64,000 bases of DNA, taken from NCBI RefSeq assembly GCF_900078545.1, contig NZ_FLLS01000002.1:1311404-1375403 (forward strand), written 5' to 3'. The notes under the pieces were generated by a model that was not told the DNA's origin, made no database searches, and worked only from the letters and a program-made list of their open reading frames with translations. This DNA is from Olegusella massiliensis. GTDB lineage: Bacteria; Actinomycetota; Coriobacteriia; Coriobacteriales; Atopobiaceae. Below, piece by piece: positions 8,338 through 61,109 of this stretch (positions are counted from its first letter, which is position 1; the number at the start of each line of letters is the position of its first letter). Both the position numbers and the translations under genes were made by a program.

Positions 8338-11049
8338 ATGCAAGAACAGGGGAGTACGGTACCCCAAGGAAAAAATGCTGCTGCACGAGCGTTTGATGCG
8401 GTAGATGTGCCCGATCAGATTAAGGACAATCTCTCGCTTTTTCTGCGTTTGGTAAGTACCATCATCAAAGAAAACGATCCAAGCTTGCTTGCAACCTTTG
8501 AGAATCTGCTTGCTGCTGAGGCGGATTTATATAACAAGAACTTAGACACCAAACAGCGCGAATCAATCTTTGAAGAAGCGGTGGGTACCATAGATTTGCT
8601 GCCGACCGAGCAAGCAACGCTGTTAATGCGTGCGTTTGCAACTTTTTTTCACTGTGCAAATATTTGTGAGGAGAGCTATCGCGTACATGCACTTAAGGCT
8701 CGCGAGGCAGAACACAAGCCTTCTGTTGAGAGTGATCCTGTCAACGAGCTGACGGTTGCTTATCACGAACTCACTCTTGAGTGTGGTAAAGAGGGAGCAG
8801 ATCGTTTGCTTGAGCGTTTAGAGTTTCATCCGGTGTTTACCGCGCATCCTACTGAGGCGCGACGCAAAGCAGTCGAAGGTAAAATTCGTCGTATTGCCGA
8901 TTTGCTTGAGGAGCGTTCACGTCTATCAGGTATTGGTTTGGTGGAAAATGAACGCCTGATGTTGCAAGAGATTGAAGCTTTGCTGCGTACTTCTCCCATT
9001 GCGCTCAAAAAACCCACACCTGTTGAAGAGGCCGATACGATTCTGGGCATTTTTGATGCGACGCTTTTTGATATGGTGCCCGAGGTATATCGCCGTTTTG
9101 ATGACTGGGCACAGGGAGATAAGGCCGGTCTGCTACCGCCTAAATGTCCCGCGTTTTTTCATCCTGGGAGCTGGATTGGCTCTGATCGCGACGGCAATCC
9201 TAACGTAACAGCCAAGGTGAGCCGTGATGTTGCTGAGAAATTCCGCGTGCACGCGCTTGAGGCGTTGGCACAGCATACCCATGATGTGGGCCGTAATATG
9301 ACACTGGATGTGTCAACAACTCCGGCATCTGCAGAGTTGCTCAATCTGTGGAATCATCAAGTTGAAATGAGCGAGGGGCTTACAAGTTCTGCTCTTGAAC
9401 GCTCGGCATTTGAGATTCATCGTGCTGTTATGCTGGTGATTTCCCAGCGTTTGCGCGCAACGGTGAGCCGTACAGCAGATGTGATGTATCCATCTGCGGA
9501 GGCATATATAGAGGATCTGCACGTGGTGCAAAGGTCGCTCGCTGAGGCTGGTGCTGTGCGTACTGCGTATGGTCCCTTACAAAAATTAATTTGGCAAGCG
9601 CAAACTTTTGGCTTTCATCTGGTTGAGATGGAGTTTCGTCAGCATTCCGTCGTGCACGCTCGAGCGCTGGCGGATATTCATGAGCATGGTCGTTGGGGAG
9701 AACGTGGCCAGCTCAATCCGATGACTCGTGAGGTACTGGATACCTTCCGTGCAGTCGCCTGGATTCAACGGCGCAATGGTGTCAATGCTGCGCGCCGCTA
9801 CATCATCTCATTTTCTAAAACTGCAAAGGATGTTGAAGCGGTCTACGAGTTGGCGCGTCTTGCTTTTGCACATGCTGAGGATGTGCCGACGCTCGACGTC
9901 ATTCCGCTGTTTGAGCAACTAGAAGACTTGCAGAATGCTGTATCAGTACTTGATGAGATGCTGCATTTACCCGAGGTTCAGCGTCGTCTTGCTCAAAATG
10001 GTCGTAAGCTTGAGGTTATGCTTGGCTACTCTGATTCTTCCAAGGATGCTGGTCCTACTGCTGCAACTTTAGCGCTGCACCAAGCCCAAGGTGAAATTGC
10101 TGCCTGGGCCGAAAAGAACCATATTGACTTAACGCTTTTCCATGGCCGTGGAGGTGCTGTTGGACGAGGGGGAGGCCCCGCAAATCGTGCAGTACTGGCT
10201 CAACCCAAAGGCTCTGTTAATTGCCGTTTCAAACTAACTGAGCAGGGCGAAGTTATCTTTGCTCGCTATGGAAATGTGGCATTGGCTCGTCGCCATGTTG
10301 AATCGGTTGCAGCAGCAACTCTGCTGCAGTCTGCACCTGCCTCTGAGTGGACCAATACAAAATCCACCGAGCGCTACTGGCCGATGGCGCGTGATTTGTC
10401 TGAGTTTTCACGCGAGCGTTATCTCGACCTGCTTGAAAGCGAGGGCTTTGCCGAGTGGTTTGCTACGGTAACGCCTCTGACTGAGATTGGTTTAATGCCT
10501 ATTGGTTCGCGTCCTGCTAAGCGCGGTTTGGGTGCCAAGTCTCTTGATGATCTGCGTACAATTCCTTGGATTTTCTCCTGGAGCCAAGCACGTGTAAATC
10601 TCGCTGCGTGGTATGGCTTGGGTACTGCTTGTGAAAAATTGGGCGACCTTGACAAACTGCGTAAAGCATATTGTGAGTGGCCACTGTTTTCGACCTTTAT
10701 TGATAATGTTGAAATGTCACTGGCAAAGACGGATAGCCGTATTGCACGTATGTATCTTGAGCTGGGCGGACGTGAAGATTTGGCAGCAAAGGTACTGGAT
10801 GAAATGATGCTGACTCGTCGCTGGGTATTAAGTATTGTTGGTGATGAGTGGCCTTTACAGCATCGCCGCGTGCTTGGTCCTGTGATTCGTATGCGTCTGC
10901 CCTTTGTGAACGTGCTTTCGATGACCCAAGCACGTGCGTTGCGGGCAGTTCGTGGCGGTAAGTTGACCGATGCTGAGCGCGAGCGTCTTATCTACTTAAT
11001 TTTGTGTACCGTATCTGGAGTCGCGGCTGGTCTACAAAATACTGGCTAA
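8338..11049 (+). CDS. ppc: Phosphoenolpyruvate carboxylase
   Basis: A 903-residue enzyme that carboxylates PEP with bicarbonate to oxaloacetate, an anaplerotic step. All signature elements are present: FHPVFTAHPTEARRKAV (catalytic His) near residue 165, GSDRDGNPNVT near 280, GYSDSSKDAG near 563, FHGRGGAVGRGGGP near 601, and the conserved C-terminal QNTG. The frame is open from 8245. ATG 8338 is chosen because GGAAGGAG ends 5 nt before it; ATG 8335 is the close alternative. Two copies of TGGCTAAGCAGA (11042 and 11057) span and follow the stop codon. Confidence 0.97.
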   Translation: MQEQGSTVPQGKNAAARAFDAVDVPDQIKDNLSLFLRLVSTIIKENDPSLLATFENLLAAEADLYNKNLDTKQRESIFEEAVGTIDLLPTEQATLLMRAFATFFHCANICEESYRVHALKAREAEHKPSVESDPVNELTVAYHELTLECGKEGADRLLERLEFHPVFTAHPTEARRKAVEGKIRRIADLLEERSRLSGIGLVENERLMLQEIEALLRTSPIALKKPTPVEEADTILGIFDATLFDMVPEVYRRFDDWAQGDKAGLLPPKCPAFFHPGSWIGSDRDGNPNVTAKVSRDVAEKFRVHALEALAQHTHDVGRNMTLDVSTTPASAELLNLWNHQVEMSEGLTSSALERSAFEIHRAVMLVISQRLRATVSRTADVMYPSAEAYIEDLHVVQRSLAEAGAVRTAYGPLQKLIWQAQTFGFHLVEMEFRQHSVVHARALADIHEHGRWGERGQLNPMTREVLDTFRAVAWIQRRNGVNAARRYIISFSKTAKDVEAVYELARLAFAHAEDVPTLDVIPLFEQLEDLQNAVSVLDEMLHLPEVQRRLAQNGRKLEVMLGYSDSSKDAGPTAATLALHQAQGEIAAWAEKNHIDLTLFHGRGGAVGRGGGPANRAVLAQPKGSVNCRFKLTEQGEVIFARYGNVALARRHVESVAAATLLQSAPASEWTNTKSTERYWPMARDLSEFSRERYLDLLESEGFAEWFATVTPLTEIGLMPIGSRPAKRGLGAKSLDDLRTIPWIFSWSQARVNLAAWYGLGTACEKLGDLDKLRKAYCEWPLFSTFIDNVEMSLAKTDSRIARMYLELGGREDLAAKVLDEMMLTRRWVLSIVGDEWPLQHRRVLGPVIRMRLPFVNVLSMTQARALRAVRGGKLTDAERERLIYLILCTVSGVAAGLQNTG

Positions 11050-36974: not shown

Positions 36975-37345
36975 AGCTCGCGCTCCTTCCTTGATAGTGT
37001 GATGAATGCCAATAAATTCAGAAGGAGCCCCTCGCGCAGTGCTTGGTTCTGGTGGAAAACGGATAGGGGAAGCCCAAATCGATAATCCCTTCCGCTCATT
37101 ATGTCTTCGTTTGAGTGCGCGACGTCCTTAATGAATAGCTTACATCCTTTGCCACGCTCCACAACTGGTTGCTCATGTAGCGTAGTGTGGCGTTTTCATG
37201 ACTCGGGTTTCTGGCAGCAGATGGACTGCTATTCCAAACTCCACAGATAAAAAACACTCATGTTTGCAAGCATTGCAAATAATCCTATATCCTCATCTAC
37301 CTGCGAGTTTGCGATGGACTGCGGGGGCGGTATAATGGCATCGAC
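36975..37345. other. Gene-free stretch before the TPP riboswitch
   Basis: No supported ORF. A loose inverted repeat GCCAC (about 37149) / GTGTGGC (about 37187) is followed by GTTTTC, a weak terminator candidate on the plus strand. The 3' end holds the thiamine-operon promoter. Confidence 0.4.
37309..37336 (+). promoter_or_regulatory. Promoter of the thiamine-precursor uptake operon
   Basis: TTGCGA (37309-37314), 16-nt spacer and a perfect TATAAT (37331-37336), about 10 nt upstream of the TPP aptamer. Confidence 0.75.
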
Positions 37346-37431
37346 AAGGGGGGCTGGCGCACGCCGGCTGAGATTGGGTCCACTGCGACCCTGACCCGTA
37401 GACCTGATCTGGGTAATGCCAGCGTAGGGAC
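37346..37431 (+). ncRNA. TPP riboswitch (THI element) aptamer
   Basis: The conserved CTGAGA (37368-37373, after GCCGG) and the ACCTGATCTGGGTAATGCC core (37402-37419) are both present with the expected spacing. The P1 arms GGCTGGC / GCCAGC close the element. A terminator hairpin follows directly, so TPP should stop transcription before the uptake operon. Confidence 0.96.
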
Positions 37432-37442
37432 CAGCGTATACG

Positions 37443-37472
37443 AAGGGTCCCGCAATGGCGCGGGGCCCTTTT
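37443..37472 (+). terminator. Riboswitch-controlled terminator
   Basis: AAGGGTCCCGC and GCGGGGCCCTT form the stem, followed by TT and further pyrimidines. It lies 12 nt after the TPP aptamer and 23 nt before the first start codon. Confidence 0.8.
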
Positions 37473-59031: not shown

Positions 59032-59637
59032 TTACAGATATTCAGTCTTATAGCTTGTATATCCTTCGTAATGATAGCTTGCATCAATACCTTTCATGTA
59101 CACGTCTCTATCAGAGATGGCATACGTTAGAGCTTCATGCAAGACGTGTTTGATTTCGATATCTCGGATAGGGCTACGTTCCATTGCGAGAAGATAATCT
59201 TCTTTATTGACCTTACTCCAATCAATTACCTGGCCAAGATTCTCCTTGAGCATTAAATCGAGCCAAATCCTAGTAGAACGCCCGTTTCCTTCACGAAACG
59301 GATGAGCAGCATTCATTTCGACATACTTCTCAACTATTTCATCAAAAGATTCCTGAGGCATTTTCTCAATATTTGTAAGACTTGTTTCAAGATACATAAC
59401 AGGAGCGAATCTAAAGCTTCCCTTGGCGATATTTACTGTACGAATTCTTCTCGCAAATTTATACACATCTTGGAAAAGGAAAGCATGAATCTTTTGAAGT
59501 GACTCGACTGTTCCTGGGATAAGCGTATCTAGGAATCCGCTCTCGAACATCTCAAGAGCTCGCTTTTTACTCAAGCGCTCCTCTTCGCGAGCAAGCTCTG
59601 CTTCTTCTGTGAGATGGAGTTTATTTTCTAAGATCAT
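59032..59637 (-). CDS. Fic-domain AMP transferase, C-terminally autoinhibited type
   Basis: A 201-residue Fic protein. The catalytic motif HPFREGNGRSTR near residue 112 is complete (His, Arg, Gly/Asn loop), so it should be active as a nucleotidyltransferase. A C-terminal SYHYEG (S-x-x-x-E-G) near residue 187 matches the inhibitory-helix motif of class III Fic proteins, for which no separate antitoxin is needed. The target is unknown. The start is ATG 59637 without a strong ribosome binding site. Confidence 0.9.
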   Translation of the reverse strand: MILENKLHLTEEAELAREEERLSKKRALEMFESGFLDTLIPGTVESLQKIHAFLFQDVYKFARRIRTVNIAKGSFRFAPVMYLETSLTNIEKMPQESFDEIVEKYVEMNAAHPFREGNGRSTRIWLDLMLKENLGQVIDWSKVNKEDYLLAMERSPIRDIEIKHVLHEALTYAISDRDVYMKGIDASYHYEGYTSYKTEYL

Positions 59638-60162
59638 AGATTCATATTTCCTTATACAAATAACTTTTTGAGGAAGGATTACTTCATATTCCTGAGTATA
59701 TCCAACTTACACAAGTGAGGGATGATGAATAAAGCGTAAAGAGGAGGCTGAAGTGGTTTTTCCGGACCATCCAAAACCACTTTAGATTAAGAGAATTGCG
59801 CAGGATTGCATTATTAGATATCGACATCCAAGGGTATTGTGGCGTAGGTCAACTGATTTGTAGAGTAAATTTCTTGTCATAGGAAGAAATAAAGCCGCTA
59901 CGTAGATAAAACTACTCAAGCTGTCCTAAAAATAACCCATCTGAGTACATATGTTCAGATAATCTAATTTTAATTACGTTTCAAACAATACTATTCCAAG
60001 TGTTTATGCGAACGAGTAAGAACTTGAAATAAAGGTACTCTTTGGATATTGAATGTGAAAAGGATAGGTTTTAGTGTCCGCATAAGTTGTTAGAGTTGAG
60101 AAATAGAGAGTTCAGGTGTTTCAAGTTAGCCAATTGCTGCTACAAAGGAGCTGAAACAAGCA
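59638..60162. other. Gene-free AT-rich stretch upstream of fic
   Basis: It contains an inverted repeat AAGTGGTTTT (59751) / AAAACCACTT (59773) around a 12-nt centre that itself holds GGA / TCC. No ORF with a ribosome binding site is seen before 60163. Low GC suggests acquired DNA. Confidence 0.4.
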
Positions 60163-60384
60163 ATGTTGTATGCACACTCAAATATGGCAGCAACCAAGAA
60201 ACAGGAGAAGGTGCTTAGTGCGCTAGGCATTCCAAGCGACCTATCGTCCCTTACAGATGACCAATGGTTTGATGCCGAATCAAAGCTGAGCAGCGAACTA
60301 CAGATGCGCGGTATTTCTGACGGTGGGCTGAACGAGTACGGCAAAATTTGTGATGCGCTTCTATTCGAGTTATCCCAAGTCTAA
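60163..60384 (+). CDS. 73-residue hypothetical protein
   Basis: A small soluble protein with a helical C-terminal half (ALGIPSDLSSLTDDQWFDAESKLSSELQ, then GGLNEYGKICDALLFEL). AAAGGAG lies 12-13 nt upstream of ATG 60163; an internal ATG at 60184 is possible. It is acidic with two Trp/Cys positions and has no recognised family. A long hairpin follows the stop. Confidence 0.5.
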   Translation: MLYAHSNMAATKKQEKVLSALGIPSDLSSLTDDQWFDAESKLSSELQMRGISDGGLNEYGKICDALLFELSQV

Positions 60385-60409
60385 ACATTGACCGCGTGAG
60401 CTACCTTTT

Positions 60410-60463
60410 AACCTCCCTTCTAGTTGCTGAGATAAGCTCAGCACACAAGAGGGAGGTTTATTT
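60410..60463 (+). terminator. Long hairpin: terminator and/or ribosome-binding-site sequestering structure
   Basis: CCTCCCT (60412-60418) pairs with AGGGAGG (60450-60456), and a nested TGCTGAG / CTCAGCA stem fills the loop; TTTATTT follows. It could end transcription of the 73-residue gene. The 3' arm is also the perfect ribosome binding site of the next small ORF, so the same structure could block its translation. Confidence 0.6.
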
Positions 60464-60586
60464 ATGCTGGAAGACCCCACTAAGGGCGAGGAGACCACCA
60501 AAGACCCCGAGGGCGGCGAGGTTAGTGCAGACTTTAAAGCTTACAAAACCTCTACCGAGCGTAAGAAAGTTGAACTCAAGCTTTGA
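60464..60586 (+). CDS. 40-residue highly charged small protein
   Basis: ATG 60464 lies 7 nt after GGGAGG (60451-60456); the stop is TGA 60586. The peptide is mostly Glu, Lys, Asp and Thr (MLEDPTKGEETTKDPEGG ... TERKKVELKL) and hydrophilic. The ribosome binding site is locked in the preceding hairpin. A short perfect hairpin AACTCAA / TTGAGTT overlaps the stop codon. No family was recognised; the near-consensus ribosome binding site is the main support. Confidence 0.42.
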   Translation: MLEDPTKGEETTKDPEGGEVSADFKAYKTSTERKKVELKL

Positions 60587-60596
60587 GTTGTCAGTA

Positions 60597-60625
60597 ATGC
60601 TCCCCGCACACGTGGGGATGATCCT
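60597..60625 (+). CRISPR. Solo type I-E-like CRISPR repeat, copy 1 (degenerate)
   Basis: A 29-nt segment with the hairpin CTCCCCGCACACGTGGGGAT and end GATCC, like the I-E repeat of actinobacteria (CTCCCCGCGC-CGGGGAT). It is 184 nt upstream of copy 2, i.e. close to three canonical repeat-spacer units, but no intermediate repeats remain. Confidence 0.5.
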
Positions 60626-60681
60626 GACACTTGTGGGACGTGTCAAGCTCAAGTTCGAAGGTTGTGATACGGTAAACAAGA

Positions 60682-60724
60682 GCCTATTGCCACGTCGTAT
60701 GCGAGACGATAGGCCCATTTTTAT
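60682..60724 (+). terminator. Terminator-like hairpin after CRISPR-like copy 1
   Basis: GCCTAT (60682) with ATAGGC (60709), and inner CGTC / GACG, form an asymmetric stem followed by CCATTTTTATTT. Confidence 0.6.
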
Positions 60725-60780
60725 TTGCGCTCAACAACTGCGAACCTTTAACAACGCGCAGTCGTGCGTTAGAACAAACG

Positions 60781-60809
60781 CTACTCCCCGCGCACGCGGG
60801 GATAATCCC
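60781..60809 (+). CRISPR. Solo type I-E-like CRISPR repeat, copy 2
   Basis: 29 nt: CTACTCCCCGCGCACGCG, then GGGATAATCCC. It is the best copy, with a perfect CCCCGCG / CGCGGGG hairpin typical of I-E repeats and the canonical 29-nt length. It is followed by 32 nt and then a strong terminator. Confidence 0.62.
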
Positions 60810-60839
60810 TCAGCTGGTGTGTGGTATAAAGGAAGTGAG

Positions 60840-60885
60840 GCGGAACCCGGACTACAACTGGTCCTTTTGGTTCCGCTTTCTTTTT
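60840..60885 (+). terminator. Rho-independent terminator between CRISPR-like copies 2 and 3
   Basis: GCGGAACC (60840) / GGTTCCGC (60869), nested GGAC / GTCC, then TTTCTTTTT. Repeat copy 3 begins right at the end of the T-run. Confidence 0.85.
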
Positions 60886-60912
60886 CTACTCCGCGCACGC
60901 GGGGATAATCCC
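60886..60912 (+). CRISPR. Solo type I-E-like CRISPR repeat, copy 3 (2-nt deletion)
   Basis: CTACTCCGCGCACGCGGGGA then TAATCCC, identical to copy 2 except for two missing C. The next 32 nt are antisense to a tRNA-Trp anticodon region. Confidence 0.6.
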
Positions 60913-60944
60913 ACCCGTCTACGGTTTTGGAGACCGTCACTCTG
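60913..60944 (+). other. 32-nt spacer-like segment antisense to tRNA-Trp (CCA)
   Basis: On the minus strand, ACGGT-CTCCAAA-ACCGT (60937-60921) is a perfect anticodon arm with CCA at 34-36, U33 and A37, as in tRNA-Trp. The match to a typical tRNA covers roughly D-stem 3' half to variable loop, about one spacer length. T-arm and acceptor are absent; they are replaced by the CRISPR-like repeat. Confidence 0.55.
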
Positions 60945-60991
60945 TCGTTTAACTAAGCGGGTGTTTGGGTCTTGGCTGATTAACTGGGTAA

Positions 60992-61109
60992 AAAGGTGCT
61001 ATAAGACTTGCAATTTGTTAAAGGGTGCTTATTGAACCCGCTGTAAGTAAAAGAGTTTTTATCGAACCTTCTACAGCCAATAAGGTGTATATCGAATCAC
61101 CTATGGGGT
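60992..61109 (+). repeat. Four degenerate 30-bp tandem repeats
   Basis: Units begin at about 60992, 61020, 61050 and 61080 with the pattern AAAGGGTGNTTATCGAACC. From 61025 the last three encode VLIEPAVSKR, VFIEPSTANK and VYIESPMGCR, so the period is codon-preserving. A stop codon precedes the frame. It is probably the remnant of a repeat-containing gene. Confidence 0.5.

Follow-up and report, generated by a model that had tools for sequence, protein, structure and literature searches.

CreA/CreR guide RNAs are repeat-like, are encoded beside a cas operon and act through the effector of that operon. Another kind of repeat-like element is found in prophages, whose solitary repeat units, two of them of the I-E type, were shown to block CRISPR immunity and are known as RNA anti-CRISPRs (Racrs; Camara-Wilpert et al. 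2023, PMC10651486). For most of these solitary repeat units, though not for all, the host carries the cognate CRISPR subtype, while the SRUFinder rule takes a unit as solitary when there is no second repeat within 100 bp (PMC10651486). Finally, CRISPR mini-arrays carried by phages are a known phage strategy (reviewed in PMC11656645).

Here, we examine three I-E-like repeats that lie within 316 nt of one another in the window, i.e., the whole stretch of 64,000 nucleotides of Olegusella massiliensis DNA that was analysed. These repeats (copies 1–3) alternate with two terminator-like hairpins:

60597-60625, + strand: repeat copy 1, I-E-like, 29 nt (ATGCTCCCCGCACACGTGGGGATGATCCT)
60682..60725, + strand: terminator-like hairpin 1, weak; stem 60682-60714, then CCATTTTTATTT; T-rich tail to 60725
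60781-60809, + strand: repeat copy 2, I-E-like, 29 nt (CTACTCCCCGCGCACGCGGGGATAATCCC)
60840..60885, + strand: intrinsic terminator 2, strong; stem 60840-60876 (GCGGAACC...GGTTCCGC), tail TTTCTTTTT
60886-60912, + strand: repeat copy 3, I-E-like, left arm of the stem shortened by a 2-nt deletion (CTACTCCGCGCACGCGGGGATAATCCC)

The nearest Racr subtype to the window copies is that of RacrIE1 and RacrIE2 (PMC10651486). As with Racrs, the hairpins are of the I-E type and lie outside of arrays, with no cas genes nearby, in DNA that is probably prophage-derived and in a family with I-E systems, whereas the window differs by its three divergent copies in 316 nt, its one strong and one weak terminator, its broken phage and its I-E-less host. 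Considered against the features by which Racrs are recognized, the copies are intergenic and match known CRISPR repeats in both sequence and hairpin (2–3 changes from the I-E array repeats in the order and, for copies 1 and 2, 7-bp hairpins). Moreover, copy 1 is solitary with respect to the 100-bp rule (155 nt to copy 2), while copies 2 and 3 are not, since they are only 76 nt apart and SRUFinder would thus call them an array; as for a host with the cognate subtype, no Cse1 is encoded in the genome. Because copies 2 and 3 break the 100-bp rule, because a promoter is not evident and because the host is without I-E, we do not claim formal Racr membership for copies 1–3, whose anti-CRISPR activity is putative.

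The other two systems compare as follows. Phage mini-arrays resemble copies 1–3 in comprising a handful of repeats in viral DNA (presumably viral, for the copies) that lacks cas genes, but the intervals of 155 and 76 nt seen here are not spacers, the repeats are non-identical and no protospacer match was found. With CreA/CreR, the window has in common a repeat-like RNA sequence outside an array, but the effector to be guided is missing: the genome does not encode that of type I-E, and the local I-C operon has been deleted.

Repeat divergence and terminator-like hairpins

A preliminary description had reported three I-E-like repeats starting at 60597, 60781 and 60886, i.e., with starts 184 and 105 nt apart, and a direct scan confirmed both their positions and their spacing. 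All three fold as hairpins, copies 1 and 2 with stems of 7 bp and copy 3, which spans 27 nt with its 2-nt deletion, with a stem of 6 bp. The core pattern CCGC-N4-GYGGGGATRATCC has three matches in the window, all corresponding to copies 1–3, against an expectation from composition of about 3e-5 per window, and no further I-E-like repeat was found when the whole 1.81 Mb genome was searched. Among the matches obtained elsewhere, a one-repeat match in G004 was dismissed as not being a repeat (handle GATCCTCG), while two solitary matches were set aside as not comparable, one (G009) being a near-perfect palindrome and the other (G023) appearing coding-like by eye.

Copy 1 represents one variant of the repeat, copies 2 and 3 another. 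Between copies 1 and 2, 6 of the 29 positions are different, five of the six differences falling outside the stem and the sixth keeping the stem as a G-U pair. In the I-E arrays of relatives, the within-array repeat distance averages 0–1.4, and pairs differing at six or more positions reach at most 0.8% (array orientation; badly decayed array repeats are excluded from this test by its strict stem pattern). In phage repeat clusters, a distance of the size observed between copies 1 and 2 is usual. Regarding the other hallmarks of an I-E array, i.e., near-identical repeats of 29 nt, spacers of ~32 nt giving a 61-nt period and I-E cas genes in the genome, the window shows 6/29 differences and a deletion in copy 3, intervals between repeats of 155 and 76 nt, and a genome without Cse1. 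Furthermore, no degenerate repeat occurs at 61-nt steps around the copies in the window.

A terminator had also been described after each of copies 1 and 2. The one after copy 2 is firm: it begins after a gap of 30 nt, the stretch comprising copy 2 and terminator 2 has a folding z of -4.7, and a simple scan detects the inner stem. In contrast, hairpin 1 is weak (folding z of -1.6 for its stretch) and goes unreported by the simple scanner. Folding and scanning the region yielded no terminator after copy 3, and scans of IMG/VR with both terminator sequences returned nothing. We agree with the preliminary description that simple array decay leaves the terminators unexplained. Three features argue against the simple decay of an array, namely the irregular intervals, the 6/29 divergence and the strong terminator that separates copy 2 from copy 3, and an ordinary decayed I-E array fits copies 1–3 poorly.

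The copies are located between genes, in that the only frames running across them (170 aa on the + strand and 86 aa on the - strand) are unsupported and overlap both repeats and terminators. Solitary repeat units are expected to have a promoter within 250 bp upstream; the best promoter-like sites in the 110 nt upstream of the copies score no better than random stretches. Rfam and ARAGORN revealed no known RNA over 59.7–61.2 kb, the match to Chlorobi-1 in Rfam being due to chance (12.5 bits vs. a cutoff of 50). Elsewhere in the window, a TPP riboswitch (37337-37448) scores above the Rfam gathering threshold.

Phage remnants in the scar of a type I-C locus

The close relative used here is Atopobium sp. 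oral taxon 810 F0209 (hereafter F0209), in which the flanks are about 90% identical. At exactly the same place, F0209 has a complete type I-C locus, composed of cas3, cas5, cas8c, cas7, cas4, cas1 and cas2 together with an array in which a 32-nt repeat, unrelated to copies 1–3, occurs about nine times; in this draft assembly, cas3 is on a separate contig, so that its adjacency to cas5 is presumed. Five features of the window delimit the site or fill it:

59832..60182, + strand: upstream DNA and first 20 nt (MLYAHS) of the lost I-C cas3, 86% identical to F0209 into its intact cas3
60163..60384, + strand: 73-aa ORF, the cas3 start fused to a short ORF, sitting where F0209 has the small ORF that precedes its scaffold gene
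60464..60586, + strand: truncated start of a phage scaffold gene (MLEDPTKGEETTKDPEGGE) that continues as an unrelated 3' portion, with the stop codon ~11 nt before copy 1
60913..60968, - strand: tRNA-Trp(CCA) remnant (D-arm and anticodon-arm part), broken where copy 3 begins
60973..61044, + strand: right-hand limit of the variable stretch, again similar to F0209 (88% identity)

The start of the lost cas3, at about 60163-60182, forms together with the DNA upstream of it the left edge of a deletion scar, beyond which other sequence follows. Since the window matches the DNA upstream of cas3 and its first codons and then jumps, its genome appears to have lost both the I-C operon and the array, taking the F0209 state as ancestral; no I-C repeat remnants were found in this genome. 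The comparison documents that, of two sister genomes, one has lost an entire type I-C locus. It also qualifies the earlier statement that cas genes are lacking, which is correct for the repeat stretch itself but overlooks the cas3 start at its left. Likewise, a relative with an ordinary array here, which the preliminary description had regarded as an argument against its own proposal, does exist in F0209, but this array is of type I-C and built on a different repeat, so that the argument applies only by half. Copies 1–3 are absent from F0209.

Several other elements border the scar. Directly to its left, a Fic/DOC family gene (Pfam E 1.1e-12) occupies 59032-59637 on the minus strand. At the right edge, units of about 30 nt (TGCTTATTGAACC...) are repeated in a degenerate tandem over 61021-61107, and copies related to them are dispersed, in many places of F0209 and in at least one other place of the window's own genome. 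In F0209, an apparent IS110-type transposase insertion (L007 11403-12783), absent from the window by inspection, separates the phage remnant from GDPD.

Inside the scar, the stretch 60391-60521 shows 90% DNA identity to F0209, and the scaffold start of the window aligns with the F0209 scaffold (0/1000 shuffles). The scaffolds of F0209 and of another relative, G030, are homologous by alignment, the latter having a head scaffolding PHROG match. In F0209 (L057 4852-7226), a truncated minor head protein of phage type (PHROG 581, E 1.8e-12) comes directly after the last I-C repeat, and then a small ORF and the scaffold start; the 73-aa ORF of the window shows no significant homology to this small ORF and has no Pfam or PHROG match. 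The following stretch, 60522-60972, which contains copies 1–3, is without counterpart in F0209. Towards its right end, the tRNA-Trp remnant shares 87% identity, over 55 nt, with a tRNA-Trp-like sequence adjoining phage head genes in G060, and neither ARAGORN nor Rfam reported an intact tRNA or RNA gene at this remnant. Copies 1–3 are thus flanked by the scaffold remnant on one side and by the tRNA-Trp remnant on the other, and the occurrence of these head-gene and tRNA-Trp pieces in the I-C scar points to a phage-borne origin.

An intact phage carrying the cluster of copies 1–3 was found neither in INPHARED, PLSDB and IMG/VR nor in 140 family genomes. Exact IMG/VR scans for the repeats returned no element resembling copies 1–3 in a related phage, and the repeat region had no DNA match in INPHARED and PLSDB at E 0.01. 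Similarly, the minor-head fragment of F0209 has no relative in IMG/VR, and its scaffold none among phages.

Phage repeat clusters and the origin of the copies

Four phage or viral records contain clusters that we consider candidate Racr loci. In Streptomyces phage ZL12 (L147 1430-1580), three divergent I-E-like repeats precede a terminator-like hairpin, and in Streptomyces phage Ignacio (L145 490-700), four such repeats stand right before a gene. The faecal phage record MT837197.1 (L148 1500-1600) has two of them and a textbook terminator behind, and so does, with a terminator, an IMG/VR contig (L102 10990-11100), where the cluster is maybe outside the phage side of an integration site. Some other viral matches (PIS 136, L055) correspond to ordinary arrays. 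As in the window, all four clusters consist of 2–4 divergent I-E-like repeats with irregular spacing and, in ZL12, MT837197 and L102, a terminator-like hairpin follows the repeats. They differ by their gaps of about 20–36 nt and by the single terminator that closes the cluster, whereas in the window copies 1 and 2 are each followed by a separate hairpin.

Our preferred reading, which we hold with about even confidence, is that copies 1–3 are the fossil of a Racr-like cluster once carried by a phage, made up of I-E repeat units that were solitary or formed a mini-array, and now embedded in a prophage and CRISPR scar. In its favour are the occurrence of the repeats at this place only, the leftover phage DNA on both sides, the strength of terminator 2, the distance between copies 1 and 2, the four phage or viral clusters and the solitary units of prophages that block CRISPR immunity (PMC10651486). 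In addition, I-E effectors occur in 9 of the 61 family genomes, and the I-E array repeats of these relatives show 2–3 changes from copy 1 and are close also to copy 2. The repeats most likely arrived with a virus, as decoys against bacterial immunity, which makes them a plausible addition to an already known type of element. While the phage was intact, each repeat would have given rise to a short transcript that stopped at the terminator of this repeat or at the following one. The Cas6e of an I-E host would have bound the hairpin of the repeat and cleaved it, and the cleaved product would have tied up Cas6/Cas7, leaving fewer working Cascade complexes. What the analysis shows are the repeats, one strong terminator, the phage-remnant setting, the absence of cse1, a divergence unlike that of an array and I-E systems in family relatives, from which we infer such past transcription, Cas6e binding and anti-CRISPR action. 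In the present genome, the element is probably inert, because the phage is in fragments and the target system is absent. Against this phage-decoy reading stand the promoter scores at background level, the host without I-E, the failure to find an intact phage, the interval of only 76 nt for which SRUFinder would call copies 2 and 3 an array, and the alternative offered by G030 (see below).

A more specific version of the phage-decoy reading, which we regard as doubtful, is a multi-unit Racr locus, in which several divergent decoys, each with its own terminator, would have enabled one phage to block I-E systems that differ in their variant of the repeat, in contrast to the units described to date, which are single. 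If the repeats did come with a phage, the locus adds an Atopobiaceae-phage decoy cluster and provides a search signature, i.e., divergent CRISPR-like repeats plus intrinsic terminators, which is also present in three other phage or viral records. The main use of the locus lies in this signature and in its pointing to odd arrays with phage fragments.

Array ends with phage DNA and other alternatives

The main alternative, albeit a somewhat less likely one, is that the copies are a trailer-end relic of an old I-E array with phage fragments in spacer positions, in which case the repeats would be host-derived and mark the junctions, while the terminators and the tRNA would come from phage DNA. That the window site is itself a lost CRISPR-Cas locus is in line with such a relic, and G030 (L058 6860-8760; C1 about 868860-870760) offers a model for it. 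There, an intact I-E array ends in a repeat, followed by 1.4 kb of phage DNA (beginning of the major capsid gene, scaffold, small ORF and head-gene end), by a solitary, slightly different repeat, and by a second, phage-like segment (truncated ORF, terminator and intact tRNA-Gln). This trailer end resembles the window in having phage scaffold-region DNA beside I-E repeats, a terminator and a tRNA, and its layout makes the phage-decoy verdict less certain. However, G030 has a full array with I-E cas genes, and its repeats are antisense to the phage genes, whereas those of the window are sense, so the two structures are not the same. With regard to the idea that such segments entered as phage-derived spacers, no AAG motif was seen by eye at one G030 junction.

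When G030 is considered along with F0209, where the last I-C repeat directly adjoins truncated phage head genes, it follows that phage head-region DNA recurs at the far end of arrays, in two species and two CRISPR types; it is also found beside the I-E repeats of the window. Two relatives without cse1 also carry I-E repeats. In G035 (L060 about 9640-9680), a single I-E repeat abuts a fragment preceding a phage terminase large-subunit gene. In G032 (L059 about 9300-9520), a truncated I-E cas3 is fused to three decaying I-E repeats; this is ordinary, textbook decay, which lends weight to the array-relic reading. Several observations nevertheless go against a relic in the window: the locus lost here was of type I-C, with an unrelated repeat, copy 1 is too unlike copies 2 and 3 for one array, no degenerate repeat appears at 61-nt steps, at least two separate insertions are needed, and the orientation is opposite to that in G030.

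That the copies were instead a phage mini-array, the spacers of which would have guided the I-E system of the host against competing phages, is improbable. Such use of mini-arrays is a known phage strategy (PMC11656645), and the 30 nt from copy 2 to its terminator are close to one spacer length, but the intervals between the repeats are not spacer-sized and, at E 0.01, the region resembles no phage or plasmid record.

Even less probable is a working small-RNA locus of the host, CreA-like or otherwise regulatory, with one short transcript per repeat. Repeat hairpins that are kept and one strong terminator speak for it. The preliminary description had suggested a small-RNA role on the model of CreA, and a small-RNA origin was indeed worth testing. 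It had proposed to look in the complete genome for cas genes and for an intact array with the same repeat; this search revealed no cse1 (the type I-E effector gene) and no further repeats, and placed the sole cas1 gene within a type III-A locus, about 86 kb past the right end of the window, whose repeat is unrelated to copies 1–3. With no cse1 and only a III-A cas1, a CreA-type regulatory role in the host is unsupported; in addition, the locus is absent from the sister genome F0209, its promoter signal is at background and it is surrounded by broken phage genes. The III-A array of the window's own genome (L097 16466-17945) has about 20 repeats, including a duplicated block of four repeat-spacer units.

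Finally, GC-rich hairpins are common as terminators and the I-E-like match in G009 may be one of them, but the idea that copies 1–3 are such hairpins by chance, with no relation to CRISPR, has a negligible probability and is contradicted by the counts, with none elsewhere in the genome and three within 316 nt where 3e-5 were expected.
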